Shown: positions 2,905 through 18,371 of the stretch, one piece after another
How the letters are laid out: the number at the start of each line of letters is the position of its first letter
How positions within the stretch are numbered: position 1 is the first letter of the stretch
Origin: Candidatus Eiseniibacteriota bacterium
GTDB lineage: Bacteria; Joyebacterota; Joyebacteria; Joyebacterales; Joyebacteraceae
Direction: 5' to 3'
Length of the DNA stretch: 49,635 nucleotides
NCBI GenBank assembly: GCA_030595835.1
Contig: JAUVLG010000010.1
Location: 1-49,635, forward strand
Translations under genes and position numbers: made by a program
The notes under the pieces: model-generated
Seen by the model: the letters and a program-made list of their open reading frames with translations, nothing else
Told to the model about the DNA's origin: nothing
Databases searched by the model: none

Positions 2905-3788
2905 AGCCCTGCCTCCTCAACGATTCGCGGGGTGATCTTTTCCCACATGACCGGCATCAGATGGACGCCCGCGACGCCGTCGATATCACGCAGCTCGCGG
3001 ATGAGCTCGCACGCGAGACGGACGCCCTCTTCCGCAGGGTCCGCAGCACCTTCCAGACGCCGGATGGTATCGTCCGGAATCATCATTCCGGCGACCTCGT
3101 CTTTCATGTACTTGAGCGCACGAACCGACCGCGTGGGCAGGACGCCCGGGAGTATCTTCACCTTTGTGTGAAGGCCGAGGTCGCGCACGCCGTCCATCCA
3201 TCGCCGGAACCGCGCGACGTCGAAGACGGCCTGTGTCTGGATGAAATCGACACCCGCCGCGACCTTCTTGGCGATTCGGACGAGTCGAAGCCCCATGGGC
3301 TCCGCGAACGGATTCGCGGCCCCGCCGAGCAGCACGTCGGGGGGCCTTTTCAGTTCGGCGCCGTTCATGAGGTGGCCGTCACGCATGCCGTGGGCTACCG
3401 AGATAAGCTGGACCGAATCAAGATCGAACACCGGCCTGGCGTCGGGCTGATTCCCCATGACCATGTGGTCACCGGTCAGAAGCAGCAGGCTCCTGACACC
3501 CAGCGCCGCGGCGCCGAGAATGTCGCTCTGAAGCGCGATGCGGTTACGGTCGCGGCACGTCATCTGGACGACGGGGTCTAGCCCCTCGTCCAAGAGCAGC
3601 TTCGCGGCGGCGATGGACGACTGCCGGACGATACCCGTCTGGTTGTCGGTGACGTTGACCGCATCCACGCCACGGAAGTGTTCCGCCTTCTTCCGAACGA
3701 GGTCCGGAGACGCGCCGAGCGCCGGACCCAGTTCACCGGTGACGATGAAGCGTCCGCTGTCGATGGCTTCCTTGAGAGTTCGCTCCAA
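2901..3788 (-). CDS. metF: 5,10-methylenetetrahydrofolate reductase
   Basis: Reduces methylene-THF to methyl-THF, the substrate of the downstream metH-like enzyme. The protein is one FAD-binding TIM barrel; visible family signatures are TGELGPALG near the N-terminus, NVTDNQTG, TCRDRNR and LLLTGDH. The frame is open upstream to 4007 but would run into metV. I chose the TTG at 3786-3788 because GGAG lies 9 nt before it and the product (295 aa, beginning ERTLKEAIDSGRF) has normal MetF length. The next gene on the strand, metV, encodes the zinc/iron-sulfur partner found with MetF in acetogens, which suggests a MetFV-type enzyme rather than a plain NADH-dependent MetF. Confidence 0.9.
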   Translation of the reverse strand: MERTLKEAIDSGRFIVTGELGPALGASPDLVRKKAEHFRGVDAVNVTDNQTGIVRQSSIAAAKLLLDEGLDPVVQMTCRDRNRIALQSDILGAAALGVRSLLLLTGDHMVMGNQPDARPVFDLDSVQLISVAHGMRDGHLMNGAELKRPPDVLLGGAANPFAEPMGLRLVRIAKKVAAGVDFIQTQAVFDVARFRRWMDGVRDLGLHTKVKILPGVLPTRSVRALKYMKDEVAGMMIPDDTIRRLEGAADPAEEGVRLACELIRELRDIDGVAGVHLMPVMWEKITPRIVEEAGL

Positions 3789-3868
3789 CGGATAGGTCTC
3801 CTGCAGTTCGCGTTCGTCCGAGCGAGGGCAAGCGCCACGGCTCTCGATCGTCCGCGCGAGGGTAAGCG

Positions 3869-4396
3869 CTACGGTTTGCGCTCTTGTCGGACGCGCTTCG
3901 CCACGTCTAGATCGAGCCTTCGCACGATCCGGGCGACGCGCCACGTGGGGGCATCTTCCCGCCCGCGGAACACGTTCAGCCAGGTGGATGTGTGTTCGAG
4001 ATCCCAACGGTGCGCCGCGAGCATCTCCGTCAGCATAGGGACGCGACCGAGCAATCGCGACCTGGCGTAGATGGCGTACCAGATGCAGCGCTTCTCAGGG
4101 AAAACCTCGCAGTAGCCCCCGGGCCTTGTGCCGCCGCAGGCTCCGTTACGGAGGCGCTTGGGACAGCGCTGCGAACAGATGAAAGCGGTGTGGCTGAGAA
4201 CACAGTCGCCACACCGCTGACATTTGAACATCGGTATCTTGATGAGGTTCTCGAACAACAATCCCAGGCCGGAGACACAACGCTCCAGCGACGGCCTCGC
4301 TGACAGGAAGCCGTCCAGCCGACTGCTGAATCTGGAGATCTCGCGTTCGCTCATGTGCCCAGCGCCCGAGTTCCGGTCCGGCTTCCCAACGGTCAC
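3869..4396 (-). CDS. metV: MetV-like protein, methylenetetrahydrofolate reductase C-terminal (cysteine-rich) family
   Basis: The core (CQRCGDCVLS, then CSQRCPKRLRNGACGG and GYCEVFPEKRC) is the cysteine-rich signature of the MTHFR_C family (PF12225), the small subunit that pairs with MetF in the Wood-Ljungdahl methyl branch of acetogens and some other anaerobes. It is thought to link MetF to electron donors other than NADH. The GTG at 4394-4396 lies 2 nt after the stop of the panB remnant and neither it nor the alternative ATG at 4352-4354 (MSEREISRF) has a clear Shine-Dalgarno, so the start is uncertain. The gene ends about 80 bp before the metF TTG. Confidence 0.85.
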   Translation of the reverse strand: MTVGKPDRNSGAGHMSEREISRFSSRLDGFLSARPSLERCVSGLGLLFENLIKIPMFKCQRCGDCVLSHTAFICSQRCPKRLRNGACGGTRPGGYCEVFPEKRCIWYAIYARSRLLGRVPMLTEMLAAHRWDLEHTSTWLNVFRGREDAPTWRVARIVRRLDLDVAKRVRQERKP

Positions 4397-4398
4397 CT

Positions 4399-4715
4399 CT
4401 AGTCGACGTCGATTCCCAACTTCTCGAACTCTTCCTTCGACATCTTGTAGCAGTGCTCAGGCTGCGGGAAGTCTTTCGACTTCACGTCCTCGATGTACTG
4501 ACGGAAGGCTCCATCGAGTACCTCCGTCAGGTCGACGTACTTCCGGACGAACTTCGGGCGGCACGCACTCGACCAGCATGCCCCACACTCCGGCCTCCTG
4601 GAGAGCGATGGCATCCTCGACGAGCTTCTGAGCCGCGTCGGCGGTCTTGCCCTGCACCCGGTATCCTCCGAGCGCGGGCGCCGACCGGCTTCCCGTGTGC
4701 GAGGTTCTTTCTCTA
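4399..4715 (-). pseudogene. panB: Decayed C-terminal remnant of panB (ketopantoate hydroxymethyltransferase)
   Basis: Two frames hold adjoining pieces of PanB. The frame ending at 4457 reads LGGYRVQGKTADAAQ ... EAGVWGMLVECVPP, the conserved centre of the enzyme. The frame ending at 4399 reads KFVRKYVDLTEVLDGAF ... VKSKDFPQPEH, its C-terminal helices. They meet at about 4545-4560. The segment that should lie between them (TIGIGAG and the following loop, roughly 40 residues in the family) is absent, and the catalytic N-terminal half is not found upstream. The gene has therefore lost its 5' half, carries an internal deletion and a frameshift, and cannot make an active enzyme. PanB also uses methylene-THF, which fits its place ahead of metV-metF-metH. 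Confidence 0.8.
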
Positions 4716-4745
4716 CCAGTATCGCCCAGCCTGTGGTGAACCAAG

Positions 4746-4775
4746 AGTCTATCAAACCAGCGGGGCCGTTTTCAA
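4746..4775 (-). promoter_or_regulatory. Possible sigma70 promoter of the panB remnant-metVF-metH cluster
   Basis: Read on the minus strand: TTGAAA (4770-4775), 18-bp spacer, TAGACT (4746-4751). It sits downstream of the terminator of the preceding operon and upstream of the panB remnant. The -10 matches 4 of 6 and the -35 matches 5 of 6. Confidence 0.4.
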
Positions 4776-4836
4776 CTCGAATCGGGGACAGGAAGGCCAG
4801 ACACCCCGGAGGCCGCTCACCGACGCGATCCAGGAA

Positions 4837-4872
4837 CCAGCAAAGAACAGCCCGGGCACAAGGCCCGGGCTG
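4837..4872 (-). terminator. Intrinsic terminator of the rex-mbx operon
   Basis: A perfect 10-bp stem, CAGCCCGGGC (4848-4857) and GCCCGGGCTG (4863-4872), with a 5-nt loop. On the minus strand it is followed by TTCTTTGCTGG. It lies about 60 bp beyond the stop of the last gene of the operon. Confidence 0.8.
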
Positions 4873-4934
4873 CCCACGTGAGCGAGGCCGCTGGAAAGGC
4901 AGCGCTCTCACTCGTCGATGTACTTGAACGAGAT

Positions 4935-6785
4935 CTACTTACTCTGCATCCACCTGTGGATACCCTCCGACGCGATCTTCGCGTCGGCGATGGCCGTGAC
5001 GGCGTCCAGGTTGATGTTGACGATGTCGCCCCCGGCGAAGACACCCGGCAGAGAGGTCATTCCATCTTCGTCCACACTGACCTTCCTCATCGCGGTGAAC
5101 TCCATCTTCTCGAACTCGCCCTCGGGGACGAATGAGAAGTCCGGACCCTGCCCGATCGCCTCGATAATCATCGTTCCCTCGAGGACCATTTCCTCGTCCT
5201 CACGGAACGTCGGCGCGAACCGGCCTTCATCGTCGAACACGGACTTCACCTTCATACACAGAAGCCCCTTGACGTTGCCTCCATCGTCGAGCAAGACCTT
5301 CTTGGGACCCCAGGCCGGGTTGAACTCGATCCCTTCCTCCCGGGTCTCCTCGATCTCCTCGGAGGTGGCGGGCATCTCGTCCCAATCCTCGAGTGACACC
5401 ATTCTGGTAACGGTCTTCTCGCCGGGATGCTGGATCTGCTGGAGCCGTAGAGCCTCCCTGGCCACGTCCATCGCCACGTTCCCGCCGCCTATGACGACGA
5501 TCTCCTTCGTGACCGCGGTCGGCCGGTCCGTCTTGTTCTTGCGGAGGAAGTCGAGCGCCAACCCGCACTTCTCTGAGTTGTCGACCCCGGTGGACCGGCT
5601 CTTCGTCAGGCCGACTCCCAGGTAGACCGCGTCGAACTCCTGCCGCAGCCCTTCGAAGCTCACGTCCTTCCCCACTCGCGTGTTGAACCGGAAATCCACG
5701 CCCAGTGAAGCGATGTAATCGACGTCCTTGTCGATGCTCGCGAGCGGCAGCCTGTAGCGCGGCGGCCCCACTCGGATCATGCCGCCTCCGCCCTCGAGTT
5801 CATCGAACACGACGACCTCGTGCCCCATCAGCCTCAGGAAGTAGGCCACGGACAGACCACCGGGCCCCGCTCCCACGACCCCCACCTTCTTGCCGGTCGG
5901 CTGCCCCGGCGCCTGCTCCAGCACCGTCTTGTAATCACGGATGGAGTCTGATACGAACCTCTTCAGCCACCTGATGGCGACGGGCTCGCCCCTCAGGCGG
6001 AGTGCGCAGGCGTCCTCGCAGTGCTTCATACAGAGCCTGCCGCATATGGCGGGGATGGGATTGTCCTCGTATATCTTCCTGAGAGACTCCTCGGGCTCGT
6101 CGTTGTAGACCGCCAGGATGTAGTCCGAAATCTTCATGTGGGCCGGGCACGCGTCCTCACAGAGACCGCACCCGAGACACCTCGCGGCTTCGTGCACCGC
6201 CTCCTCTTTGCTGTACCCGATGACCTGCTCGACGAACGACAGCTTGCGCTCCGTCGGCGGAATCTCCGGCATCGGTACTCTCTCGGGCTCGAAGAGCGCA
6301 TAGTCCAGATCGGAAGAGAACCCCTCGTAGTTGCGCTTCCGGTGAGACAGGCTGGCCTTGAGAACCGAGTAGCTCTCGTCGGGAACGAACTTCTCTTGGT
6401 CGGCCTTGTCATCCCTCGGCGTGAAGACGAACGTGTCAGTGTCGAAATGGGTGTGAAAATAGTCCCTGGAGAGCCTCAGCGAACCGGGCGGGCAGATGTC
6501 GACGCAGAGCCCGCAGAAACAGCACCTGCCGTAGTCCAGTCGCGGACGCTCGTTCTTCATCCCCGGAACGGACTCGAGCTCCGCGATCTCTATCATCTCG
6601 ATGGCGTCGTTCGGACAGATCTCGGCGCAGTTGCCGCACCCCGTGCACGTGTCCCAGTCGTTCAGGTGGAAGCCCCTGTACCGGAGCGCGGGTTCCTTCG
6701 GCGTGAACGGATAGCAGGTGGTCTTCGGCTTGCCGAAAAGATGCTTGCCGACACTCAGTGAGTTGAGAAAGCCCCTCTTAGACAT
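4935..6785 (-). CDS. NuoI/MbxN-like two-cluster ferredoxin fused to a GltD-like FAD/NAD(P)-binding oxidoreductase
   Basis: Residues 1-110 are a NuoI-type subunit: C47-x2-C50-x2-C53-x3-C57P and C88-x2-C91-x2-C94-x3-C98P would hold two [4Fe-4S] clusters. From about 190 the protein becomes like the glutamate synthase small subunit GltD/NfnB: a further cysteine set (ARCLGCGLCEDACP, CGRLCMKHCEDAC), an FAD dinucleotide fold (VVGAGPGGLSVAYFL, about 300), an NAD(P) fold (VVIGGGNVAMD, about 415) and a closing FAGGD motif. No glutamine amidotransferase or glutamate synthase large subunit is nearby. As last gene of the Mbx-like operon it fills the MbxN/NuoI slot. The fusion suggests that the flavin module docks permanently on the peripheral arm and exchanges electrons with NAD(P)(H) there; direction and cofactor preference are inferred. 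Confidence 0.9.
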   Translation of the reverse strand: MSKRGFLNSLSVGKHLFGKPKTTCYPFTPKEPALRYRGFHLNDWDTCTGCGNCAEICPNDAIEMIEIAELESVPGMKNERPRLDYGRCCFCGLCVDICPPGSLRLSRDYFHTHFDTDTFVFTPRDDKADQEKFVPDESYSVLKASLSHRKRNYEGFSSDLDYALFEPERVPMPEIPPTERKLSFVEQVIGYSKEEAVHEAARCLGCGLCEDACPAHMKISDYILAVYNDEPEESLRKIYEDNPIPAICGRLCMKHCEDACALRLRGEPVAIRWLKRFVSDSIRDYKTVLEQAPGQPTGKKVGVVGAGPGGLSVAYFLRLMGHEVVVFDELEGGGGMIRVGPPRYRLPLASIDKDVDYIASLGVDFRFNTRVGKDVSFEGLRQEFDAVYLGVGLTKSRSTGVDNSEKCGLALDFLRKNKTDRPTAVTKEIVVIGGGNVAMDVAREALRLQQIQHPGEKTVTRMVSLEDWDEMPATSEEIEETREEGIEFNPAWGPKKVLLDDGGNVKGLLCMKVKSVFDDEGRFAPTFREDEEMVLEGTMIIEAIGQGPDFSFVPEGEFEKMEFTAMRKVSVDEDGMTSLPGVFAGGDIVNINLDAVTAIADAKIASEGIHRWMQSK

Positions 6786-6814: not shown

Positions 6815-7912
6815 CTATCTGTCGATCTCCGGGGCCACCACGTACATGCTCATCATGATGTTGCCGACATCCGCGATGTTCGCGCCCACGAGCGTCTTCT
6901 CGAGAATGGCGAGCCCGTGGGCGTAAGATGGGGTCCGGAAGTGCACCCTGTGCGGTTTCTCCCCGCCGTCACTCACGAGATAGAGTCCCAGTTCCCCGCG
7001 CGACGACTCGCAGCGGACGTAGGCCTCACCCGCCGGGATCTTCCACTTAAGCGGGTTCGGAACCCGATTGTAGACGTCGCCCTCGGGCATCGCGTCGATA
7101 AGGTTAAAGATCATGTGAACGCTCTCGATCATCTCGTCCCGGACCACGCATATCCTCGAGTACGCGTCCCCGTCATCCCGGGTGTGAACCTCCCACGGAA
7201 CTCTGTCGTATGCCGCGTAGGGATCGACCTTTCTCACATCGTACTTCATGCCGGTGGCCCGGATCACCTGGCCGACACCACCCATCGCCAACGCCTCCTC
7301 CCGAGAGACGACTCCGACTCCCCTGGCTCTCTCGGAGAACAGCTTGTTGTTGAAAAACGTGGTGTCGTAGTCCGGAACGCAACCGCCGATCGAGTGAAGT
7401 GTGCTAACCATCCTGTCCGTGAAGCCCTCGGGGAAGTCCCTCCTCACACCGCCCGGCCAGACGTATATGTGGTAGACCCGACCTCCGGTCAGCTCCTCAA
7501 ACAGGTCCAGCACGAGGTCCCTGTGGTACATGGCCCAGTTGGAGACCGTGTCGAAACCGAGCATGTTCGCGTAGGCCCACAGACCGAAGAGGTGCGAACT
7601 GACCCGCGCGAGCTCCAGGTAGATGCTCCTGACGAACTGGGCTCTCTCGGGCACCTCGATCCCGGCGAGCTTCTCCACGCCCATGGCATAGATCATCTCC
7701 ATGTGGTCGGGATCCACCAGGTTGATCCTGCACACCATGGGGAAGTTCTTAATCCAGGAGCGCCCTTCCATGAGCTTCTCAAAGCCCCTGTGCAGATAGC
7801 CGGGATTGGCCGTGGCCTCGAGGATGCGGTCCCCCTCAACCTTCAGCGTAATGCTGAAGTTGCCGACCATTCCCAGATGCTGGGGACCGAAATAGAGCTC
7901 GAGCTCTCGCAT
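6815..7912 (-). CDS. nuoD: NuoD/MbxL-like 49-kDa subunit lacking Ni ligands and canonical quinone-site residues
   Basis: Family identity is clear from GPQHLGMVG, VEKLAGIEVPERAQF and the C-terminal VVAPEIDR. In [NiFe] hydrogenases two CxxC pairs hold the metal. Here the first pair reads C61-RI-N64 and the C-terminus has no cysteine, so a Ni-Fe site is excluded. In complex I the chamber has a His in 'HPSTHG' and a Tyr in 'DYVS'; here these positions read Val (HLGMVG) and Leu (NLVD). The protein therefore resembles the Mbx (MBS) type, where the former active site has been remodelled. 365 aa is normal for the short hydrogenase-related forms. GGAAGG precedes the ATG; 6 bp separate it from the nuoC stop. 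Confidence 0.9.
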   Translation of the reverse strand: MRELELYFGPQHLGMVGNFSITLKVEGDRILEATANPGYLHRGFEKLMEGRSWIKNFPMVCRINLVDPDHMEMIYAMGVEKLAGIEVPERAQFVRSIYLELARVSSHLFGLWAYANMLGFDTVSNWAMYHRDLVLDLFEELTGGRVYHIYVWPGGVRRDFPEGFTDRMVSTLHSIGGCVPDYDTTFFNNKLFSERARGVGVVSREEALAMGGVGQVIRATGMKYDVRKVDPYAAYDRVPWEVHTRDDGDAYSRICVVRDEMIESVHMIFNLIDAMPEGDVYNRVPNPLKWKIPAGEAYVRCESSRGELGLYLVSDGGEKPHRVHFRTPSYAHGLAILEKTLVGANIADVGNIMMSMYVVAPEIDR

Positions 7913-7918
7913 GAGTTC

Positions 7919-8428
7919 TTAGCCTTCCTCGTCTATCGGCGGAACCCTGTCGAATACGTCCGCCACGTACTGCTTCGTGTCGAAGTCCTTCCTGAACGGA
8001 GGGATCTCGTAGTCCCTGTCCAGGAAGAGAGGAGTGAGGCGCGGGTGGCCCTCGAAGTGGATCCCGTACAGCTCGTGGATCTCCCGCTCGTGTGGCTCCG
8101 CTATCGCGAAGACACCTGTAGCGGTCGGCGCACTCGCCTGCTCTCTGGGCACGGTCGCCTTGAGCAAAACCTCCTGCTTGCCTCCGTCCCGACCAACCTC
8201 GTCCTCGGTGTAGAAGGACAGCAGATACACGAGCTCGAACTCACCCCGGTCGATCCAGTCCACACACGAGATGAGCTGGAGGTAATCGTATCCATCTTCC
8301 TTCAGAAAGGTCAGGACCGGCACGATTGCTTCCCTCGGAACAACGACGGCAAGCCGGCCGTCGACTCCCGACCTCAGCTCGACACCCTTGAAGGTCGCGT
8401 CCAGTCTTGTACCAAGCGGGTTCGTCAT
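7919..8428 (-). CDS. nuoC: NuoC/MbxK-like 30-kDa subunit
   Basis: A peripheral-arm scaffold subunit of complex I-type enzymes. The signature EPHEREIHELYGIHFEGHP is intact. The frame is open upstream to 8629, but the ATG at 8426-8428 overlaps the nuoB stop (ATGA) and gives 169 aa, the usual size of the stand-alone subunit. It is not fused to NuoD as in some bacteria. Confidence 0.9.
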   Translation of the reverse strand: MTNPLGTRLDATFKGVELRSGVDGRLAVVVPREAIVPVLTFLKEDGYDYLQLISCVDWIDRGEFELVYLLSFYTEDEVGRDGGKQEVLLKATVPREQASAPTATGVFAIAEPHEREIHELYGIHFEGHPRLTPLFLDRDYEIPPFRKDFDTKQYVADVFDRVPPIDEEG

Positions 8429-9003
8429 CCTTCTCTCTCTGTTATGGCCGTCGCGACCTCTGTCTGGAAGATGGGCGGCCATTCCATCTCGCCCAGAATC
8501 ATCTCCTGGTTCGCCCGGTAGGCCGCGTAGTTCTTCCTGTAGCGCTTGTAGCCGTCCGCCATGTCCTTGTCTATGAGAGTCCAGAGGTGGGTCACCGCGA
8601 CGAAGATCGCCTCCGGCCTCGGCATGCACCCCGCGATGTAGCCGTCAATGGGAATATACTTGTCCAGCTGGTTGATGGTGTTGTAGGAGTCCCAGTACAT
8701 TCCGCCGTTAATCGTGCAGGAGCCGAACCCAACCGTGTACTTGGGCTCCGGCATCTGCTCATACGTTCTGATGATGGCCCTCAGGGTCTTAACCGAGACG
8801 TAGCCGGTTATCAGGAAAAGGTTGGCCTGCCTCGCCGTTGCCGTGGGGACCACGCCGAACCTCTCGGCGTCCCACCGGCTTGTTATCGTCGGCGGCACCT
8901 CGATGACTCCGCAACCGGTGCAGAAGTACACGGCGTTCAGAGAGTACTTGTGCGCCATCTTCGTCGGAGCCTTGATCCACTTCATCAGCTGGTTGCGGTC
9001 CAT
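8425..9003 (-). CDS. nuoB: NuoB/MbxJ-like 20-kDa iron-sulfur subunit
   Basis: Carries the [4Fe-4S] cluster next to the active-site chamber (N2 position). The ligand set is C28-x2-C31 (FCTGCGVIEV), C96 (GFGSCTINGG) and C126 (AGCMPRP). The CxxC arrangement is that of hydrogenase-type small subunits; true complex I has two adjacent cysteines at this point. This agrees with the Mbh/Mbx affiliation of the operon. 192 aa; the gene begins 3 bp after the nuoH stop. Confidence 0.92.
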   Translation of the reverse strand: MDRNQLMKWIKAPTKMAHKYSLNAVYFCTGCGVIEVPPTITSRWDAERFGVVPTATARQANLFLITGYVSVKTLRAIIRTYEQMPEPKYTVGFGSCTINGGMYWDSYNTINQLDKYIPIDGYIAGCMPRPEAIFVAVTHLWTLIDKDMADGYKRYRKNYAAYRANQEMILGEMEWPPIFQTEVATAITEREG

Positions 9004-9006
9004 CCG

Positions 9007-9912
9007 TTATCTCCCGATCGTAGCTACGAGAATCAGACCGACGAACGCGATCAACGTCGGCCACCTCCAGAGGTATCGAACCGCCTGCTCCACTCTCAGG
9101 CGCGGAAACGCCGCGTTCACCCAGAAGCCGAACGCGAACACCACGAGCATCTTGAGGAAGAACACCACGGGGTTCGACGCCCCACCCCAGAGCAGGTTCA
9201 CGAAGAGCGAGATCCCGATGAACATCGTCAACCCGTGCTGAATCGTAGCAAGGGCCAGGTAGGGTCCCCCGTACTCCGCCGCCGGACCGGACGATATCTC
9301 CTGTGCGGCGCCGACGACCTCGAACGGCCTGACACCCAGCATTGCCGGCAGGATGAGCAGGTATGCGATTCCCGAGAACACCAGGGGGAAGCTCGCGATG
9401 GCGCTGGCCGATTCACGCTGAGCCGCGACGATCTCCCCGATGGAGATGGTCCCGTAATACGTCATCAGAGCCAGAACGATCATCAGAAACGGAACCTCGT
9501 AGCCCACCGCAAGAATGAGCTTCCGTGAGATACCGATGCTGACGTTCGGGTTGGCCGCCTCGCCTCCGCTGAGCGCGATGCCGAGCGGGCCCAGCAGCAT
9601 CAGGTAGAGCACCGCGAGAAGTCCACCGGAGCTGCTGAGCGGGGCCGTGCCACCCAGCGGCATGAAGAGCACGACGATGAAGGAACTCGCCAGCGAGAGG
9701 ACGACACCAAGATCGAACAGCGGGCCGTGGCTCACGCTCTTCTGAGTGAACTGCCGGAGGATGTCGATTAGCGGCTGGTACAGAGGAGGACCGACCCGCC
9801 ACTGGATCCTGGCCATGAACCTCCTGGACAACCCGAGGAAGAACAGGCCGACCGCGAGCGCCATGAGCGGTGAGAGAACGAACCACAGAATCCGCATTAC
9901 CAAGGACTCCAC
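9007..9912 (-). CDS. nuoH: NuoH/MbxM-like membrane subunit
   Basis: Connects the peripheral arm to the ion-pumping arm. About eight hydrophobic segments are visible, with the conserved early loop RFMARIQWRVGPPLYQPLIDILRQ-type sequence that forms the entry of the chamber in complex I and Mbh. 301 aa, normal for the family. Its start overlaps the preceding gene by 16 bp. Confidence 0.92.
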   Translation of the reverse strand: MESLVMRILWFVLSPLMALAVGLFFLGLSRRFMARIQWRVGPPLYQPLIDILRQFTQKSVSHGPLFDLGVVLSLASSFIVVLFMPLGGTAPLSSSGGLLAVLYLMLLGPLGIALSGGEAANPNVSIGISRKLILAVGYEVPFLMIVLALMTYYGTISIGEIVAAQRESASAIASFPLVFSGIAYLLILPAMLGVRPFEVVGAAQEISSGPAAEYGGPYLALATIQHGLTMFIGISLFVNLLWGGASNPVVFFLKMLVVFAFGFWVNAAFPRLRVEQAVRYLWRWPTLIAFVGLILVATIGR

Positions 9913-11753
9913 GCTATCTGGACGAAGATCAGAACTGCCAGGAACACCAAGATGTACATCACGTAGTCACCGACGTAGCCGGTGTAGATACGTCTCAGGC
10001 CGTCACCGAGCCCGCGGACCCATCCAGCGAGCCGCATGTAGAACGAGTCAACGAAATCCTTCAGGTACGGAGCCATCATCCGACGAAGTGGGGCGTAGAA
10101 TCGGACCGAGTACTGGTACTTGTCGCGAGGCACCGCCGCTCCCGCGGCGTAGCTGTCCGCCTGCCCGACGGACACGCTTCTCGCTCCCGACCTGAAGACG
10201 CACCAAACCACGACGAGGCCCACCAGGGCGGCCACGAGCATGTTGACCGTGTTGAGCGCACCGGTGTCGGACGCGATACCCCACGGCGTCACGTGAAGCG
10301 ACTCGAACCCGAAAGAGACGCCGATCGTATCGATAACCGCGAGCGGAATGCCGGGTAGCACGCCGAACAGGACGACCACCACCGAGAGGATCGTCATCGG
10401 GAGGAGCATCGTGAACGGTGCCCTCTCCATGTCCTCGTATCTCTGCGGCAGCTGCCCCAAGAATATGTTGTGAAGGAACTTGTAGCTGTAGAGAATCGTC
10501 CCCCATGTTCCGAACAGGGCGGCGAACGCGAGGAACGGGGATCGCTCAAGGATCAGCGTCTTGTAGATGAGCCACTTGGAAACGAACCCGTTCGTCAGCG
10601 GCACGCCGATCAGACCGCACACGCCAATCACCGCGACGATGAACGTGACCGGCATCCTCTTGATGAGCCCGCCCAGGGAATCAAGATCCCTGACGCCGTT
10701 GGTCCGGTACTCGACCGCGCCCACGACCATGAAAAGGAGAGCCTTGAACACGGCGTGATTGAGGAAGTGGAACATGCCTCCGGCGACACTCAGGCTGGTG
10801 CCAAACGAGATTCCCAAGATGATGTAGCCCGCCTGGGCCACGGTGGACCAGGCAAGCAACCGCTTCGCATCGTTCTGGAAGATCGCAATGAACGTGGGCA
10901 GCAGTATCGTGATGGCCCCGATAATCGAGAGAACGGTGTGGAACTCGATGCGGCCCACACCCAGTGACAGGAAGGTCCTGAGGCCGACGATCACGAACAT
11001 GAGGAGGAGGAACCCGTAGACACCCATCTTGATGAGTATGCCTGAGAGCACGGCGCTGAACGGTGAGGGCGCCTCCGAGTGCGCAGGCGGCAGCCACGCG
11101 TGGAACGGCCAGATTGCGTTCTTCGTCCCGAAGGCCACGCCGAAGAGGACCAGGATGGCGAGAACATAGCCGGGGGACGCCGAGGACATCCCGGCGGCAA
11201 CTCCGGTGAACTCCAGCGTCCCGAAGCTCCCGTGGAGCGTGAGCACGCCGGCAAGCATCGCCAGCGAACCCACGAAAGACATCACGAAGTACTTCATGCC
11301 CGCCGCCAGGGCCGGGCCGCCGTTGTAGCTGATCAGGAGGAAGGTCGACCAGCTCATGATCTCCCAGAAGATGAAGAGCGAGAGCAGGTCACCGGACAGC
11401 ACGACTCCCAGCATCGCGGCGATGACCAGAAGCAGCATCGAGTAGTAGAAACTGGTCCTCTCCTTCCCCTTCATGTAGCCAAGAGAGAACACGACGGAAA
11501 GGCATCCGAGGACGGACGCGGCGATGGCAAAGAGCCACGACAGCCCGTCGATCCTCAGCACCAGGGGCATCCCCAGGAAGCCTCCGTAGAATGGGACCCG
11601 GAACGCCTTCCCGTAGAGAGAGGCGACCATCACCACCAGTGCCAACGAGATGAGCACGGCGAATGCGTCCCGAGTCCTCGCCGAGACTTTCCCGAGAAGA
11701 TACGTGAGCAGTGAACCGCCGAACGCGACTATGAGCAGAAGTCCCAGGCTCAT
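9897..11753 (-). CDS. Large antiporter-like subunit (NuoL/NuoM/MbxH' type)
   Basis: A 618-aa proton/sodium-channel subunit with about 14-16 membrane segments. Channel signatures are present: the Glu of FIFWEIMSWSTF, the Lys of GTKNAIWPFHAWLPPAHSEAPSP, and NDAKRLLAWSTVAQAGYI. A C-terminal extension after about residue 500 includes a hydrophilic stretch and one or two more helices. It is the second large antiporter in the operon, immediately before nuoH, the position of mbxH' in archaeal clusters. Two such subunits suggest at least two ion channels besides the small Mrp subunits. Confidence 0.88.
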   Translation of the reverse strand: MSLGLLLIVAFGGSLLTYLLGKVSARTRDAFAVLISLALVVMVASLYGKAFRVPFYGGFLGMPLVLRIDGLSWLFAIAASVLGCLSVVFSLGYMKGKERTSFYYSMLLLVIAAMLGVVLSGDLLSLFIFWEIMSWSTFLLISYNGGPALAAGMKYFVMSFVGSLAMLAGVLTLHGSFGTLEFTGVAAGMSSASPGYVLAILVLFGVAFGTKNAIWPFHAWLPPAHSEAPSPFSAVLSGILIKMGVYGFLLLMFVIVGLRTFLSLGVGRIEFHTVLSIIGAITILLPTFIAIFQNDAKRLLAWSTVAQAGYIILGISFGTSLSVAGGMFHFLNHAVFKALLFMVVGAVEYRTNGVRDLDSLGGLIKRMPVTFIVAVIGVCGLIGVPLTNGFVSKWLIYKTLILERSPFLAFAALFGTWGTILYSYKFLHNIFLGQLPQRYEDMERAPFTMLLPMTILSVVVVLFGVLPGIPLAVIDTIGVSFGFESLHVTPWGIASDTGALNTVNMLVAALVGLVVVWCVFRSGARSVSVGQADSYAAGAAVPRDKYQYSVRFYAPLRRMMAPYLKDFVDSFYMRLAGWVRGLGDGLRRIYTGYVGDYVMYILVFLAVLIFVQIAWSPW

Positions 11754-13219
11754 CCCAGCACGCTCCCGATGTAGTTGGCCCTCTCAAGAAGCTCCGAAGC
11801 ACCGGACTCGAGGACGTCGGTGATCAGGTTCGGGTACACGCCGATTACGACGATGAAAGCGACGAAAACGAACATGGAGAGCAGGGCCATGGGGGGAGCG
11901 TCCTGCCTGGCCTCTTGCCCTTCCTCCTTCTTGAAGTAGACGGTCTGAATGACCCTGAAGAAGTAGGCTCCCTCGATCACCGTCGCGAGCAGGACCAGCC
12001 CAATGAGCACCTGCAGCAGCACGCCCTGCTCAGCAAGCGCGGAGCGCACTATCAGGAGCTTGCTCGGGAATCCGATGAACGGAGGCAACCCAACGAGCGA
12101 GAAGACCCCAATCGTGAAGGCGAACGAGGTAAGGGGCATTCGCCTTCCCATGCCCTCGAGCGAGGAGATCTCCAGTGATCCACTGCGGTAGACCATGTAG
12201 CCCACGGCGAGGAAGAGCAGTGCCTTGCTCAGCGTGTGGCTGACCATCTGAAAGAGGCCCCCGGTGACGGAGCCGGTAGTCGCTATCGCCAGCGCGAACA
12301 TGATGAGACCCATCTGTCCGATGCTGGAGTAGGCAAGCATCCTCTTGATGTTGTTCTGGGCGAAGGCGCACAGCTCTCCGATCAGCAAAGTCAGGAGCCC
12401 CAGGAACACGAAGAACAGGAGCACGCTCGAGGCCCCGAAGACCGTGAAGACCATTCTGACGACGGCGTAGAGCCCGACCTGAATGGCAATGCCGGAGAGT
12501 ATGGCGCTTATCGAGGAGGGGGCGGACGAGTGCGCATCGGGCAGCCAGGCGTTCAGCGGGAATATCGCCGCCTCGACCCCCAACCCAACAACGATCAGAG
12601 CCATGGCAACGAAGACCGGGACGGAATCCACCGAGTCTATCCGCGCCGCGATGTCAGCCATGTTGAGCGTTCCGAAGAGCCCGTAGAGGAGCCCGATACC
12701 GATCAGAAGCAGGGCGGAACCCAGCGCGCCCTGTATAAGGTACTTAACAGAGGCCTCGATGCCGGCCCTGTCTCCCACGTAGGCAACAAGGGCGTACGAC
12801 GAGATACAGAGGATCTCGAAGAAGACGAACAGGTTGAACACGTCCCCCGTCAGGACGACCCCGGTGGCCCCAACAAGGAGCAACATATAGAGAGTGTGAT
12901 ACCTGACCGTGGGGCCCGTCTTTATGTACGAGAGCGCGTAGAGTGACACGACCAGTCCGGCCAGAGCTATGAGGGCCGAGAGCAGCATACCGACCGGACC
13001 CGCGAAGAGCGTGATCCCGAATGGCGGCGGGAACCCACCGAGATTCGCGACGATCGGCTCTTCGAGCACGGTCGGGAGCAGCCGTATCGAAACCACGAGA
13101 TTGAACAGGCTCGCGATCACGGGTACGAACCCGGCGGCCCTGCGGGAGACCCTCCCGACAAGCGGCACACACAGGGCGAGCCCCAGAGGCACCGCCAGCA
13201 GCAGTACGGGGCTTACCAT
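11750..13219 (-). CDS. mrpD: MrpD/MbxH-like antiporter subunit
   Basis: 489 aa, about 14 membrane segments, homologous to MrpD/MnhD and NuoN/NuoM. Conserved elements include LTGDVFNLFVFFEILCISSY, AIFPLNAWLPDAHSSAPS and NNIKRMLAYSSIGQMG. It belongs to the Na+/H+ antiporter module of Mbh/Mbx complexes. Start and stop overlap the neighbours by a few bases, so the whole run is translationally coupled. Confidence 0.9.
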   Translation of the reverse strand: MVSPVLLLAVPLGLALCVPLVGRVSRRAAGFVPVIASLFNLVVSIRLLPTVLEEPIVANLGGFPPPFGITLFAGPVGMLLSALIALAGLVVSLYALSYIKTGPTVRYHTLYMLLLVGATGVVLTGDVFNLFVFFEILCISSYALVAYVGDRAGIEASVKYLIQGALGSALLLIGIGLLYGLFGTLNMADIAARIDSVDSVPVFVAMALIVVGLGVEAAIFPLNAWLPDAHSSAPSSISAILSGIAIQVGLYAVVRMVFTVFGASSVLLFFVFLGLLTLLIGELCAFAQNNIKRMLAYSSIGQMGLIMFALAIATTGSVTGGLFQMVSHTLSKALLFLAVGYMVYRSGSLEISSLEGMGRRMPLTSFAFTIGVFSLVGLPPFIGFPSKLLIVRSALAEQGVLLQVLIGLVLLATVIEGAYFFRVIQTVYFKKEEGQEARQDAPPMALLSMFVFVAFIVVIGVYPNLITDVLESGASELLERANYIGSVLG

Positions 13220-13572
13220 CTCAGCTCCTTTGCCTTGCGGAGGTCCAGCGTGCCGTAGGTCTTGTAGAAGCGCACGGCGAGCGCCAGCGCCAACGCCAGG
13301 ATCGCGACACCGATCACAATGGCAGTCAGCACGAGCGCCTGAGGAACGGGGTCCACCATGCCGTCAGGCTCCAGTCCGGGCCTCGAGAATATCGGCGCCG
13401 TCCCGCGGCGGATGTAGCCGACGGAGATCAGGAACATGTTCACGCCGGTATCGAGAATGCTGAGGCCGATGATCAGCTTGATGAGATTCCGCTTCACCAA
13501 GATGATCAGCAGGCCGATAGCCACGAGCCCGAACGCCCCGATGTAGTAGACGTAGTCGTGCAGGAAGCTCAT
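13213..13572 (-). CDS. mrpC: MrpC/NuoK-like subunit
   Basis: 119 aa with three hydrophobic segments, the second containing GLSILDTGVNMFLISVGY, typical of MnhC/MrpC and NuoK. It is part of the Mrp antiporter module and overlaps both neighbours. Confidence 0.9.
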   Translation of the reverse strand: MSFLHDYVYYIGAFGLVAIGLLIILVKRNLIKLIIGLSILDTGVNMFLISVGYIRRGTAPIFSRPGLEPDGMVDPVPQALVLTAIVIGVAILALALALAVRFYKTYGTLDLRKAKELRW

Positions 13573-14258
13573 TCCGTCTCCTCCATCAGGTTGTCCACGA
13601 CGCCGGCCAGCTCGGACCCGACCTTGAGACCGATCGCGCAGTAGATGACCGGGATGATGCCCGCGCTGAAGAGCGTGTTCAAAGCACCCTTGGGCAGGAA
13701 GTTGGCCAGGAAGTAGTGGGTTCCGTGAGTCAGGCCCAGAAGTCCTATCGCGACGAACACCAGTCCACTCACAGACTCCGTGAGACTGGCGCCGCTTTCG
13801 TTGATCCTCTTGCCTGGAGAACTCAGGTAGACCAGCAGGAAGGCCGAAGCGATGACGGCTCCGCCCTGGAAGCCGCCGCCCGGCGTGAGATGTCCGTGTG
13901 TGAAGATGTAGGCGCCGAACAGAAGTATCAGCGGGAAGAGAAAAATGTTCCCCGCGGAGAGAATGAGGCTCGCCGGCTCGACGCCGGACCTGCCGCGCTT
14001 GCCACCGGCGGTCGCCAGCACGGCACCCAGTCCCAGGGCGGCCACGAAAAGGACTGTCACCTCACCCAGAGTGTCGAAGGCACGGTAGCCGACGACGACG
14101 GATGTCACGACGTTGGTCGCCCCCGTGTCCTCCCGCGCGTTCTCGATGTAGTAGTCACCGATCTCTGTCTTCGGGGCGCCGAACGGGATCGCGAGCAGCG
14201 AGATACCGACGCCGACACCTATGACCGCAAGCAGGATCAGGCCTACCGTGGCTCTCAT
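13569..14258 (-). CDS. mrpB: MrpB-type subunit with MbhE-like N-terminal segment
   Basis: 229 aa. The C-terminal half (ILLFGAYIFTHGHLTPGGGFQGG) is the MnhB/MrpB/MbhF domain. The first 80 residues (one helix, then GYRAFDTLGEVTVLFVAALG) match the short MbhE segment that in true MrpA forms part of its C-terminus. E and F are therefore fused here, in line with archaeal mbx clusters, which have no separate E gene. Confidence 0.88.
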   Translation of the reverse strand: MRATVGLILLAVIGVGVGISLLAIPFGAPKTEIGDYYIENAREDTGATNVVTSVVVGYRAFDTLGEVTVLFVAALGLGAVLATAGGKRGRSGVEPASLILSAGNIFLFPLILLFGAYIFTHGHLTPGGGFQGGAVIASAFLLVYLSSPGKRINESGASLTESVSGLVFVAIGLLGLTHGTHYFLANFLPKGALNTLFSAGIIPVIYCAIGLKVGSELAGVVDNLMEETE

Positions 14259-14494
14259 TCCTCGTACCTCTTAGTCCGCCTGATGGCGATCACGAAGATC
14301 GCAGTGACAAGTGCCGCGCCGATGGACGCTTCCGCCATAGCCACGTCCGGCGCCTGAAGAAAGAAGAACAGGATCGAGGCGAGCAAGCTCACCAGACACG
14401 AAGCGATGACCGCACTCAAAAGATCCCTGTAGATGAGGGCCGCCACGGCAGCAGTGAGCATCGCGAGCACCAGCAGTGATACGATGATGATCAT
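14255..14494 (-). CDS. MbhD-like subunit (MrpA C-terminal / DUF4040 type)
   Basis: 79 aa, three hydrophobic segments, with FFFLQAPDVAMAEASIGAAL, the hallmark of the MrpA C-terminal domain that stands alone as MbhD. The open frame reaches 14551, but the ATG at 14492-14494 overlaps the mrpG stop (ATGA) and is the natural start. Confidence 0.85.
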   Translation of the reverse strand: MIIIVSLLVLAMLTAAVAALIYRDLLSAVIASCLVSLLASILFFFLQAPDVAMAEASIGAALVTAIFVIAIRRTKRYEE

Positions 14495-14829
14495 GGTCTG
14501 CCCTCGTATCCGTCGAATTCCTGCGCACGATCGACAACGCTGCGCTCGCACAGGGGAATACCGCTCTTCCGAGAGGCTCTGCCGAGGGCGTGGTTGGATA
14601 TGGGATTAGTAAGGAGGATGAACACGGCGATCACCAGGGTCTTCCAGAACCACGTCGGCTCGATGATGCCTACGCCGATGGCGATGAGGAAGGCGCCCAG
14701 GGTCGTGCACTTCGTACCCGCCTGAAGTCGGTTGTACACGTCCGGCATCCTGAATACACCAAGACAGCCGACGAACAGGAACAGGGCCCCCGCGAACGTT
14801 ACCACTGTGCCCAGAACGACACGCAGCAT
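14491..14829 (-). CDS. mrpG: MrpG-like antiporter subunit
   Basis: 112 aa, three membrane segments. GVFRMPDVYNRLQAGTKCTTLG is the family signature, followed by TNPISNHALGRAS. The hydrophilic C-terminal tail of about 30 residues is usual for MnhG. Start 1 bp from the mrpF stop. Confidence 0.92.
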   Translation of the reverse strand: MLRVVLGTVVTFAGALFLFVGCLGVFRMPDVYNRLQAGTKCTTLGAFLIAIGVGIIEPTWFWKTLVIAVFILLTNPISNHALGRASRKSGIPLCERSVVDRAQEFDGYEGRP

Positions 14830-15090
14830 CTAGATGCCTCTCTCCAGGTATCTGGCAATTGCAACCAGTCCCATGAACGTCAAGAGCGCGTACACCAGAG
14901 CAACATCGAGGTACACGGAGCGCTCGAAAAACAGAGCCAGCAGTACAAGCAGCGCGGTGGTCACCGTGCACGCCGTGTCCATTGCCGCCGCCCGATCAGG
15001 CGCCGTCGGGCCCTTGAGCAGGCGCAGCAGACACAGCAGTATGCCGGCCGTGATGATGCCCGTCAGAGTCAGAATCACTGTCCCGCTCAT
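14830..15090 (-). CDS. mrpF: MrpF-like antiporter subunit
   Basis: 86 aa with three membrane segments and the GPTAPDRAAAMDT motif of the MnhF/MrpF family. Overlaps the mrpE stop by 4 bp. Confidence 0.92.
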   Translation of the reverse strand: MSGTVILTLTGIITAGILLCLLRLLKGPTAPDRAAAMDTACTVTTALLVLLALFFERSVYLDVALVYALLTFMGLVAIARYLERGI

Positions 15091-15608
15091 GCGAAGACCG
15101 CCTTCAGGTGCTTCTCGAATCGACCGGCTATCAGTCTCGTCGCCTCGGCCGTGTCCTCCGACCTGACGTTTATCCAGTGGATCAGCAGCTTGTCTCCCTG
15201 GATATCCAGCGTGAAGGTACCGGGAGTCAGTGTGATCGAGTTCGCGAGTAGGACCTTGGCAACGTCCTGCGAAAGCTCTGTCGTGATGATCACGATGCCG
15301 GGGTTGATGGGAAGCCTGGGGTGCAGCACGCGGTAGGCGACGTCGATATTGGCCTTCACCACCTCAGCGAAGAGCACCAGGAAGTAGACGCCCAGACGCC
15401 ACAGCCGGACGAGCGAGAGCGGAGGCAGTCCAAGCCTGGCGTAGCTCCTTGCGAGGAAGAGTGCCAGGACCAGGCTGAGAAACGCGCCCGTGGTAACTTC
15501 CTGCCAGTGCAGGCTCGACGTCAGCATGAGCCATGTGATGAGGAGGACAAGGAACAGATAGACGATGTCTCTCGCCCTTGAGCCCGTCCTGTCTGCCTTC
15601 TCAGTCAT
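15087..15608 (-). CDS. mrpE: MrpE-like antiporter subunit
   Basis: 173 aa, membrane protein of the MnhE family: two or three N-terminal helices, then VVKANIDVAYRVLHP and NSITLTPGTFTLDI, both characteristic. It is the first structural gene of the complex, 12 bp after the rex stop. ATG at 15606-15608. Confidence 0.92.
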   Translation of the reverse strand: MTEKADRTGSRARDIVYLFLVLLITWLMLTSSLHWQEVTTGAFLSLVLALFLARSYARLGLPPLSLVRLWRLGVYFLVLFAEVVKANIDVAYRVLHPRLPINPGIVIITTELSQDVAKVLLANSITLTPGTFTLDIQGDKLLIHWINVRSEDTAEATRLIAGRFEKHLKAVFA

Positions 15609-15620
15609 GCGCTGCGATTC

Positions 15621-16313
15621 CTAGGTTGTGGTGCCGACCCTCTTCCGACTCGAGCCTGTCTTCTCGCCGGACCCATTCTTCTTCTCGAAGTACGAGTGGT
15701 ACACGAGTCGAGCCATTGCGACGCTCAGGTCCACGCAAATCACGTTGACGTTGTCGGGCATCGTGAGTTCGCAAGGGGCGAACGAGAGGATGGACTTCAC
15801 GCCCGCGTTCCCCAGCCTCCGTGCAACATCCGCCGCAGACGGCTCCGGCACAGCGAGAATGACCAGCTCAATGCCCTCTTCCTTCACTCTCTTCTCGATG
15901 CCGGCTATGTCCTCAACAGTTATGCTGCCTATCGTCAGACCGATCTTGTCGGGAGCACTGTCGAAAGCGGCGATGATATGGAAGCCCTCCGACTCGAAGG
16001 TCGAGTGCTCCAGTAGCGCCGTGCCGACATTGCCGATGCCGACCACCGCGACGCCGGTGGCGTCGTCGAACCTCAACGCCTTGCGTATTTCCGTGACGAG
16101 TTCATCGACCTTGTAGCCCACGCCCCTGGTCCCAAGCCTGCCGAAGAACGAGAGGTCCTTCCGGACCGCCGATGCGTTCACGTGGCAGACGTCGGCCAGC
16201 TCGCGGGAAGAGGTCGTGTCCTTCCCCTCCCTCTTCAGGCACGTCAGGGCCCTGAAGTAAACGAACAGGCGGTCAATCGTCTCTCTGGGAATCTCTCGGG
16301 ATTGCAGTACCAT
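15621..16313 (-). CDS. rex: Redox-sensing transcriptional repressor Rex
   Basis: Rex binds DNA when NAD+ dominates and releases it when NADH rises. The 230-aa protein has the N-terminal winged helix (RELADVCHVNASAVRKDLSFFG, then RGVGYKVDEL) and a Rossmann domain with VVGIGNVGTALL. The open frame extends to 16418, but ATG 16311-16313 gives the family's normal N-terminus (RETIDRL) and has GGGAG 12 nt upstream. The C-terminal 20 residues are a charged tail beyond the usual end. It is the first gene of the Mbx-like operon, with its own operator just upstream, which indicates autoregulated control of the operon by NADH/NAD+. Confidence 0.93.
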   Translation of the reverse strand: MVLQSREIPRETIDRLFVYFRALTCLKREGKDTTSSRELADVCHVNASAVRKDLSFFGRLGTRGVGYKVDELVTEIRKALRFDDATGVAVVGIGNVGTALLEHSTFESEGFHIIAAFDSAPDKIGLTIGSITVEDIAGIEKRVKEEGIELVILAVPEPSAADVARRLGNAGVKSILSFAPCELTMPDNVNVICVDLSVAMARLVYHSYFEKKNGSGEKTGSSRKRVGTTT

Positions 16314-16320
16314 GCTGTGA

Positions 16321-16338
16321 TTGTGCTCCCATTCACAA
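16321..16338 (-). promoter_or_regulatory. Rex operator (ROP box)
   Basis: TTGTGCTCCCATTCACAA on the plus strand, that is TTGTGAATGGGAGCACAA on the minus strand. It has the 18-bp TTGTGA-N6-TCACAA architecture with one half-site perfect and one mismatch in the other. It begins 7 bp upstream of the rex ATG, contains the probable Shine-Dalgarno GGGAG and lies just downstream of the -10 element, where a bound repressor would block initiation. Confidence 0.85.
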
Positions 16339-16349
16339 GGCCAAACGCT

Positions 16350-16378
16350 AGAATGCCATGACCCCATGTCAGTGTCAA
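16350..16378 (-). promoter_or_regulatory. Promoter of rex and the Mbx-like operon
   Basis: Minus strand: TTGACA (16373-16378, perfect), 17-bp spacer, CATTCT (16350-16355, weak). The expected start of transcription, about 16343, is a few bases before the Rex operator. Confidence 0.6.
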
Positions 16379-16458
16379 GCTGTTTCTCCGCACGCTCGCA
16401 CACACTCAGGCGGATCACGATGTACCCATGCGTTCCCTCTTCGGACGTCCCTCACGGC

Positions 16459-16595: not shown

Positions 16596-18338
16596 ATGCG
16601 CGTACTTCTGTCAGGCAACGAGGCCGTGGCGCGAGGGTGCTACGAGCACGGCGTCAAGGTCGCGACCGCCTACCCGGGAACTCCGAGCACGGAGATCCTG
16701 GAGAACATCGTCCGTTACAAGGACGACATCTACTGCCAATGGTCACCGAACGAAAAGGTGGCCTTCGAGGTGGCGATGGGCGCCGCGTTCGGCGGTGTCC
16801 GAACCATGGTGGCGATGAAACACGTCGGGCTCAACGTGGCGGCGGACCCGCTCATGACGTCGACGTCGGTGGGTGGTGACGGTGGCTTTGTGATAGTGAC
16901 CGGCGACGACCCCGGCATGCACTCGTCACAGAACGAGCAGGATAACCGCTACTACGCGAAGTTCGCGAAGATCCCGCTCGTTGAGCCCTCCGACTCCCAG
17001 GAAGTCAAGGACTACGTGGGCGCCGCGTTCGAGATCTCGGAACGGTTTGGAACACCGGTCCTGTTCCGCCTCACGACGCGGCTCTGCCACGCCAAGACGC
17101 CGGTCGAACTCGGCGAGCGGACGGAGGTCGAGCGCAAGGAGTACGAGAAGGACACGACGCTGAGAGTGGTCATTCCCGCGCACGCGCGCAGGCTCCACGT
17201 CAAGGTGGAGGGCCGCCTGAAGGAGATCGCGAAGTTCGCGGAGACGTCTCCCCTGAATCGCGTCGAGGAGGGCGATCCCTCCGTGGGCGTTATCTCGAGC
17301 GGCATCGCCTACCAGTACGCGCGCGACGCGTTCCCGGACGCGACGTTCCTCAAACTGGGTCTCAGCTTCCCCTTCCCCATCGAGCTGGCCCGGAAGTTCT
17401 GCGCGCGCTTCGAAACGGTCTACATCGTCGAGGAGAACGAGCCCTTCGTCGAGGAACAACTGCGCTACGCCGGCATCACGAATGTCGTTGGCAAGGAGAA
17501 GGTGCCGCTCTGCGGTGAACTGAACCAGAGCATCGTCGCGCGCTCGTTCGGCGGAGGCGAGGAACCGGACAGGGCCGCCGTCGCTCCGCGACCGCCGGTT
17601 CTGTGCCCCGGCTGTCCGCACCGCTCGACGTTCTTCACGCTGAATCGTCTGGGGATAGGCGCGACCTCTGACATCGGCTGCTACACCCTGGGCGTGATGC
17701 CTCCCCTGAACGGCATCGACACGACGATCTGCATGGGCGCGTCGATCGGCAACGCCCTGGGCTTCGAGAAGGCCATCGGAAGAGACTTCGCGAAGAAGAT
17801 GGTCGCGGTCATCGGAGACTCGACGTTCGTGCACTCCGGCATGACCGGACTTGCGGACGCGGCCTACAACAAGGGTGCGACAACGGTCATAATCCTGGAC
17901 AATTCGATCACCGCGATGACGGGCCACCAGGACCACCCGGGTACCGGCATGACGCTCATGGGCGAGCCCACGACGAAGCTCGACTACATCGCGCTCGCCA
18001 AAAGCATGGGCGTGAAGGACGCGCGGCGAGTGGACGCGTTCGACATGGAAGCGGTCAAGGTAGCCATCAAGGATGCGACCGACAACCCGGAGACATCGCT
18101 TCTGGTGATGGAAGGACCATGCGCGCTCATGGTCAGGAAGACGTGGACGAAGGCCTTCGTTGTCGACACGGAGAAGTGCACGGCGTGCGGCATGTGCCTC
18201 AGGCTCGGATGCCCGGCCATCAGCAGGGACGAGGATGGGAAGGCGGTCATCGATCCGCTCTTCTGCGTCGGGGAAGTGTGCGGGATGTGCGCTCAGGTGT
18301 GCCCGGTCGAGTGCATCTCGGCGCCCGCCAAGGCATAG
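16596..18338 (+). CDS. iorA: Indolepyruvate:ferredoxin oxidoreductase, alpha subunit
   Basis: Oxidatively decarboxylates aryl pyruvates from aromatic amino acids (and sometimes other 2-oxoacids) to acyl-CoA, reducing ferredoxin. In order: pyrimidine-binding domain from the start (GNEAVARGCYEHGVKVATAYPGTP), middle domain, TPP-binding domain (VIGDSTFVHSGMTGL ... DNSITAMTGHQDHPGTG, about 405-450) and a C-terminal two-cluster ferredoxin (CTACGMCLRLGCP; CGMCAQVCP). 580 aa, normal for IorA. AGGAG sits 6 nt before the ATG. iorB follows after 33 bp. Reduced ferredoxin from this enzyme is a plausible substrate for the divergently encoded Mbx-like complex. Confidence 0.95.
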   Translation: MRVLLSGNEAVARGCYEHGVKVATAYPGTPSTEILENIVRYKDDIYCQWSPNEKVAFEVAMGAAFGGVRTMVAMKHVGLNVAADPLMTSTSVGGDGGFVIVTGDDPGMHSSQNEQDNRYYAKFAKIPLVEPSDSQEVKDYVGAAFEISERFGTPVLFRLTTRLCHAKTPVELGERTEVERKEYEKDTTLRVVIPAHARRLHVKVEGRLKEIAKFAETSPLNRVEEGDPSVGVISSGIAYQYARDAFPDATFLKLGLSFPFPIELARKFCARFETVYIVEENEPFVEEQLRYAGITNVVGKEKVPLCGELNQSIVARSFGGGEEPDRAAVAPRPPVLCPGCPHRSTFFTLNRLGIGATSDIGCYTLGVMPPLNGIDTTICMGASIGNALGFEKAIGRDFAKKMVAVIGDSTFVHSGMTGLADAAYNKGATTVIILDNSITAMTGHQDHPGTGMTLMGEPTTKLDYIALAKSMGVKDARRVDAFDMEAVKVAIKDATDNPETSLLVMEGPCALMVRKTWTKAFVVDTEKCTACGMCLRLGCPAISRDEDGKAVIDPLFCVGEVCGMCAQVCPVECISAPAKA

Positions 18339-18371
18339 ACACACGGACTCCCAGGAAAGAGGTAAGACACG

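Follow-up and report, generated by a model that had tools for sequence, protein, structure and literature searches.

Among solved structures, the nearest relative of the complex reported here is the sulfane sulfur reductase MBS of Pyrococcus furiosus, in which the quinone residues H38 and Y87 are lost and the proximal cluster sits on three cysteines (PMC7684303). For bacterial MBX, the published Thermotoga maritima model assumes, by analogy, that reduced ferredoxin is the electron donor (PMC9431562). Thermotogota, T. maritima included, encode PRK13984 proteins, a family without characterised function that resembles the protein studied here in full-length architecture and in its place after NuoD; most of the Thermotogota proteins are ∼40 to 49% identical to it. 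We know of no activity for any member of this fusion type, and a literature search, which covered few subscription-journal MBX papers and is weak evidence of absence, returned no description of the fusion.

We analyzed a 49,635-nucleotide stretch (the window) of an Eisenbacteria genome (GenBank assembly GCA_030595835.1, contig JAUVLG010000010.1). A minus-strand run from 16418 to 4935 encodes Rex, an NADH/NAD+-sensing repressor (15621..16418), at the operon head, followed by 13 subunits of an Mrp-type complex. These begin with MrpE-like (15087..15608), MrpF-like (14830..15090), MrpG-like (14491..14829), MbhD-like (DUF4040-like; 14255..14551), MrpB-like (13569..14258), and MrpC-like (13213..13572) subunits, and continue with two pump subunits, one MrpD/NuoN-like (MbsH-like; 11750..13219) and one MrpD/NuoM-like (MbsH′-like; 9897..11753). 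A NuoH/MbsM-like membrane anchor (9007..9912) precedes the NuoB/MbsJ-like (8425..9003), NuoC/MbsK-like (7919..8428), and NuoD/MbsL-like (6815..7912) subunits, and the fusion (4935..6785) is last. Rex is also first in the run at six more loci (L002, L005, L007, L011, L015, and L016), which come from Eisenbacteria, Fermentibacteria, Aegiribacteria, Planctomycetes, and one other MAG. We saw no NfnA gene in the window cluster and found no NuoEFG within the gene unit of the complex.

The fusion is the last gene common to the loci. Downstream genes vary by phylum, and no conserved partner pointing to an electron acceptor was present in the 20 loci compared. A terminator-like hairpin lies 3′ of the fusion, but the hairpin scan gave no excess over shuffled sequences. 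In the window, the region 3′ of the complex (502-4396) holds MetV, MetF, and an 800-aa MetH-like protein that stops after the cobalamin-binding part, an arrangement found in close relatives only (L001, L023, and L034). A functional link to these genes was rejected because the neighborhood is absent from other phyla. A 170-aa frame at 4399-4911 has a fragment of PanB (ketopantoate hydroxymethyltransferase) at its end; this copy looks like a deletion remnant, because at the same place the near relative L034 encodes a complete PanB of 285 aa as well as a further gene. By eye, HdrA-like, HdrC-like, and HdrB-like genes lie immediately 3′ of the fusion in two MAGs that are related to each other (L024:9347-11183 and L026:11788-15543). 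On the other side of the window unit, iorA and iorB (indolepyruvate:ferredoxin oxidoreductase; 16596-18944) are divergent from Rex and the complex.

The fusion gene starts with ATG 29 bases past the NuoD stop and encodes, with zero internal stops, a 616-aa protein of PRK13984 architecture that joins a NuoI-like to an NfnB/GltD-like subunit. Pfam models match a Fer4 dicluster at residues 43-101, Fer4_20 at 183-284 (E = 7.5e-27), and Pyr_redox_2 at 300-600 (E = 1.2e-20), and separate NCBIfam models for NuoI and GltD match the head and the remainder, respectively. The NuoI/MbsN-like head (residues 1-123; 6417..6785) has two [4Fe-4S] sites, with cysteine quartets at 47, 50, 53, and 57 and at 88, 91, 94, and 98. 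A linker (residues 124-168; 6282..6416) leads to a complete NfnB/GltD-like module (residues 168-616), made up of the Fer4_20 domain (5934..6239), with cysteines 203, 206, 209, and 213 and 248, 252, 256, and 260, and the FAD and NAD-binding domains (4986..5888). The 16 cysteines in these four sets show no variation across 60 full-length homologues, and an equally invariant lysine, K275, takes the position of the NfnB glutamate that follows the cluster motif. In a single-chain AlphaFold model, the C-terminal module is confident, the head moderate, and the linker of low confidence (pLDDT of <50 at residues 126-165); the C-terminal part aligns with NfnL over ∼470 to 480 columns at a TM score of 0.85 to 0.86 (by target length).

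The window contig comes from a fragmented genome, and relatives G010 and G011 show frame breaks, both of which could suggest that an assembly error or frameshift has joined two genes. That explanation is ruled out, and we consider it next to impossible, because the same intact join occurs in independent assemblies (L001, 96% identical, and G006), in distant phyla at 41 to 79% identity, and in T. maritima, whose protein matches the family over its full length. The gene is a genuine, uninterrupted fusion.

The architecture is already catalogued. A single NCBIfam model, NF010590/PRK13984 (“putative oxidoreductase”), covers residues 1-615 of the fusion (E = 6.7e-207; model positions 6-608 of 611); the score of 688 bits lies below the curated cut-off of 946, so the family architecture is present and the protein falls outside formal equivalog membership. 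T. maritima gave the sole match among 14 control genomes (E ≤ 1e-120), and its score is above the PRK13984 cut-off, as are those of 51 of the 81 Thermotogota genomes sampled. With the fusion called at E ≤ 1e-110 and the complex called by a NuoD score of >320 bits, 60 of the 81 genomes have the fusion (truncated at a contig boundary in one of them) and 61 encode NuoD of the complex type; all 60 lie within the 61, a near-perfect co-occurrence. The sole exception (G120; L096:3501-6547) has the complex, but its NuoI (164 aa) is unfused, and nfnA and nfnB come next. A contig scan added fusions from Eisenbacteria, Fermentibacteria, Zixibacteria, KSB1, Cloacimonadota, Bacteroidota, Planctomycetota, Bipolaricaulota, WOR-3, Armatimonadota, Neomarinimicrobiota, Omnitrophota, Spirochaetota, and others. 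In complex-bearing loci, the fusion is constantly placed immediately after NuoD. One Omnitrophota fusion (L030:9965-11782) has no nearby complex, sits on a long branch in the tree, and adjoins what looks like a formate-tetrahydrofolate ligase.

A first-pass annotation of this DNA had read one frame joining a NuoI-like subunit to a complete flavoprotein with its own cysteine clusters. The neighboring genes, which encode NuoB, C, D, and H and the Mrp subunits, are as it implied, and the domain models, the predicted structure, and the invariant cysteines bear out its account of the protein. It had named a false join as one possible refutation, which the independent assemblies remove, and the survey of other genomes that it proposed finds the fusion in Thermotogota and in more than 10 other phyla. 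The physical fusion, which it had taken as the notable point, is not new: the architecture is conserved across bacteria, and the window protein is a further example of a known but uncharacterised fusion type.

Several features bear on the kind of complex to which the fusion belongs. The nearest solved chains are those of P. furiosus MBS for NuoB (chain J; 216 bits versus 126 for the next), NuoD (chain L; 343 versus 232), and the NuoI head (6u8y_N; 98 versus 55 for the top-scoring chain from complex I). NuoB carries an FCTGCG motif, and its only invariant cysteines in 28 loci are C31, C96, and C126; C28, the equivalent of the non-ligating MbsJ C25, is replaced by Gly or Ala in 8 of the 28. This pattern fits MBS, in which three cysteines hold the catalytic cluster (PMC7684303). 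In NuoD, Nqo4 H38 and Y87 correspond to V16 and L65, so that the equivalents of both quinone residues are missing from the window protein. A hydrogenase identity was rejected, because the [NiFe] CxxC L1 and L2 motifs are absent from the window NuoD.

We also considered whether the complex is an NADH:quinone oxidoreductase, that is, a complex I in which the fused module has replaced NuoEFG. NuoD does score well with NuoD models, and 24 of 58 homologues have His at position 16, which means that the loss of this quinone-ligand position is not universal. We judge this reading very unlikely, as all 59 relatives that span the Tyr87 position carry Val, Leu, or Ile there, NuoB does not have the adjacent-Cys motif typical of complex I, and the nearest structures are those of MBS. 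The window complex lacks both the NuoEFG module and the His-Tyr pair of a complex I quinone site. On its sequence features it is of the MBS/MBX kind, and its NuoD and NuoB residues place it with neither quinone-type complex I nor the hydrogenases.

The same genome encodes a second Mrp-linked complex, on contig C27, with real [NiFe] motifs (RICGICSASH and DPCYSC) and an unfused NuoI; that cluster (L064:1-9462 and L068:7340-12500) also includes molybdopterin formate-dehydrogenase-like and sulfhydrogenase-beta-like proteins. Of the three PF01512 matches in the genome, one is RnfC, one is the NuoF-like component of an enzyme of the NfnABC/Stn type, and one is PduS-like; because all three belong to other systems, no NuoEFG set is left for the window complex. 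Contig C172 (L062:1248-6823) carries an NfnABC/Stn-like pair, a NuoF-like protein and a 1,244-aa GltD-like (YRR)/molybdopterin-type protein, which adjoins a 2-oxoacid:ferredoxin oxidoreductase and sucCD. On contig C192 (L067:4132-10284), HdrA, HdrB, HdrC, and MvhD-like genes adjoin, by eye, an apparent fumarate reductase/succinate dehydrogenase-type flavoprotein and an Fe-S protein.

The coenzyme is suggested by a single motif. We take the YRR-type motif of NfnB and GltD, at the end of the second NAD-domain strand, to be the site that receives the 2′-phosphate of NADPH. The window fusion carries SLEDWDEMPA in its place, with the acidic E466 (5388..5390) at the expected adenosine-ribose position. 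This residue aligns with the Glu of Escherichia coli PreT, annotated as an NAD-dependent [NAD(+)] dihydropyrimidine dehydrogenase, and with the Arg of E. coli GltD and of NfnB. From this motif we infer that the window fusion uses NADH rather than NADPH. The acidic LE form occurs in 82 of 90 fusions, and the other 8 carry the NADPH-type YRR. These eight come from one Spirochaetia locus and from seven Thermotogota and all lie on the same side of a single branch (SH-aLRT, 97), and the seven Thermotogota are those with a separate GltD/NfnB-like match ≤1 kb downstream, which is nfnA-nfnB in both YRR loci read gene by gene. The separate GltD-like genes that the first-pass annotation mentioned near Mbx clusters do exist: in a single clade of Thermotogota, nfnAB lies just 3′ of the fusion. 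Because the YRR loci form one evolutionary grouping, their association with nfnAB is suggestive and does not count as independently replicated. None of the seven genomes with YRR is among the 51 Thermotogota genomes above the PRK13984 cut-off, so the T. maritima fusion most likely has the SLE form.

Our preferred reading is that electrons enter an ion-pumping complex of the MBS/MBX type through the fusion, which provides the complex with an acquired NADH dehydrogenase of its own; for the full scheme, from NADH to sulfur with pumping, we estimate a probability of about 0.55. NADH would reduce the fused FAD, from which electrons would move along four clusters, two in the Fer4_20 domain and two in the NuoI head, and on to the NuoB cluster with its three cysteines. 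That cluster would reduce a sulfur compound such as polysulfide, the candidate acceptor suggested by kinship, and the redox step would power the two MrpD-like subunits and the Mrp module to export ions. We observe that a pyridine-nucleotide flavoprotein is covalently joined to the subunit at the Fe-S entry and that the set of cluster ligands is unbroken; we infer the direction of flow, the acceptor, and the pumping. That a pump related to complex I takes electrons directly from NADH through the fusion is probable. The conserved place after NuoD and co-occurrence with the complex, the nearest solved relatives, the placement of Rex first in the unit, the acidic SLE motif, the lack of NfnA and NuoEFG, and the MBS-like residues argue for the full scheme. 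The ferredoxin-donor model of T. maritima MBX, a ferredoxin site that the NuoI head may still have, the His at NuoD position 16 in some homologues, the NADPH-type motif in one clade, and the Omnitrophota fusion without a complex count against it. The first-pass proposal that a pyridine-nucleotide module is tied into the complex without NuoEFG agrees with the covalent join at the electron entry and the lack of a NuoEFG set; the FAD/NAD(P) module that it described is present, and the acidic motif would narrow NAD(P) to NAD.

Electrons might also reach the chamber cluster from two sources, reduced ferredoxin docked on the NuoI head and NADH bound at the FAD, where bifurcation might occur. The module has the fold of NfnL, whose FAD bifurcates in Nfn, and in MBS it is the counterpart of the NuoI head that faces ferredoxin (PMC7684303). 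Such confurcation nevertheless seems unlikely, given that an NfnA-type second flavoprotein is missing from the window and from most loci and that the invariant Lys replaces the NfnB Glu, as in the NfnABC/Stn-type subunit. Forward ferredoxin:NAD+ oxidoreduction, an Rnf-like energy-conserving step, would accord with the 2-oxoacid:ferredoxin oxidoreductases beside the complex and elsewhere in the genome, and ferredoxin:NAD(P)+ activity was the suggestion of the first-pass annotation. We find it quite unlikely: Rnf is already encoded in the genome, and flow between ferredoxin and NAD+ could go around the NuoB/NuoD/NuoH chamber, the site where redox chemistry is coupled to pumping. Since coupling should require electrons at the cluster in that chamber, flow from NADH to the chamber is favored over a simple ferredoxin:NAD+ reaction. 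Rnf and the NfnABC/Stn-type enzyme could exchange ferredoxin, NADH, and NADPH.

NADH input through the fusion may extend beyond the window. It is possible, and we propose it tentatively, that bacterial MBX, including that of T. maritima, is an NADH-driven rather than ferredoxin-driven ion-pumping sulfur reductase, with one clade switched to NADPH supplied by nfnAB. If so, a widespread bacterial MBX would be wired to NADH, and the published electron scheme for T. maritima sulfur reduction would change (PMC9431562). The fusion would also represent a second independent route by which a complex I-like machine gained pyridine-nucleotide input without NuoEFG. The split in coenzyme motif inside one family offers a natural contrast with which to test the hypothesis of an NADH-specific MBS-type enzyme.

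Parts of this arrangement recur in other described enzymes. NfnB/NfnL (4ylf and 5jca) resembles residues ∼168-616 in fold, FAD, and two Fe-S clusters, whereas the window fusion has no NfnA partner, SLE for YRR, and Lys for the Glu cluster ligand. E. coli PreT likewise has an NfnB-like module, in which Glu occupies the coenzyme position, but it lacks a NuoI head and is encoded beside PreA rather than with a membrane complex. In E. coli AegA and YgfT, a ferredoxin-type head is fused to a GltD-like module, as in the window fusion; their head is not known to be of the NuoI type, and the window fusion scores 233 and 179 bits against the AegA and YgfT models, far below the cut-offs of 1,003 and 1,154. 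The bifurcating Stn/NfnABC transhydrogenases carry a GltD-like module within a larger Fe-S protein and share the Lys, but unlike the window complex they are soluble and have NuoF- and NuoG-like parts. P. furiosus MBS (6u8y) shares with the window complex the 13-subunit layout, the three-cysteine proximal cluster, and the lack of quinone or [NiFe] ligands; it differs in using ferredoxin as its electron source, in having MbsL C85 and C385 where the window NuoD has N64 and V359, and in its MbsN (208 aa), which corresponds to the head of the fusion only.
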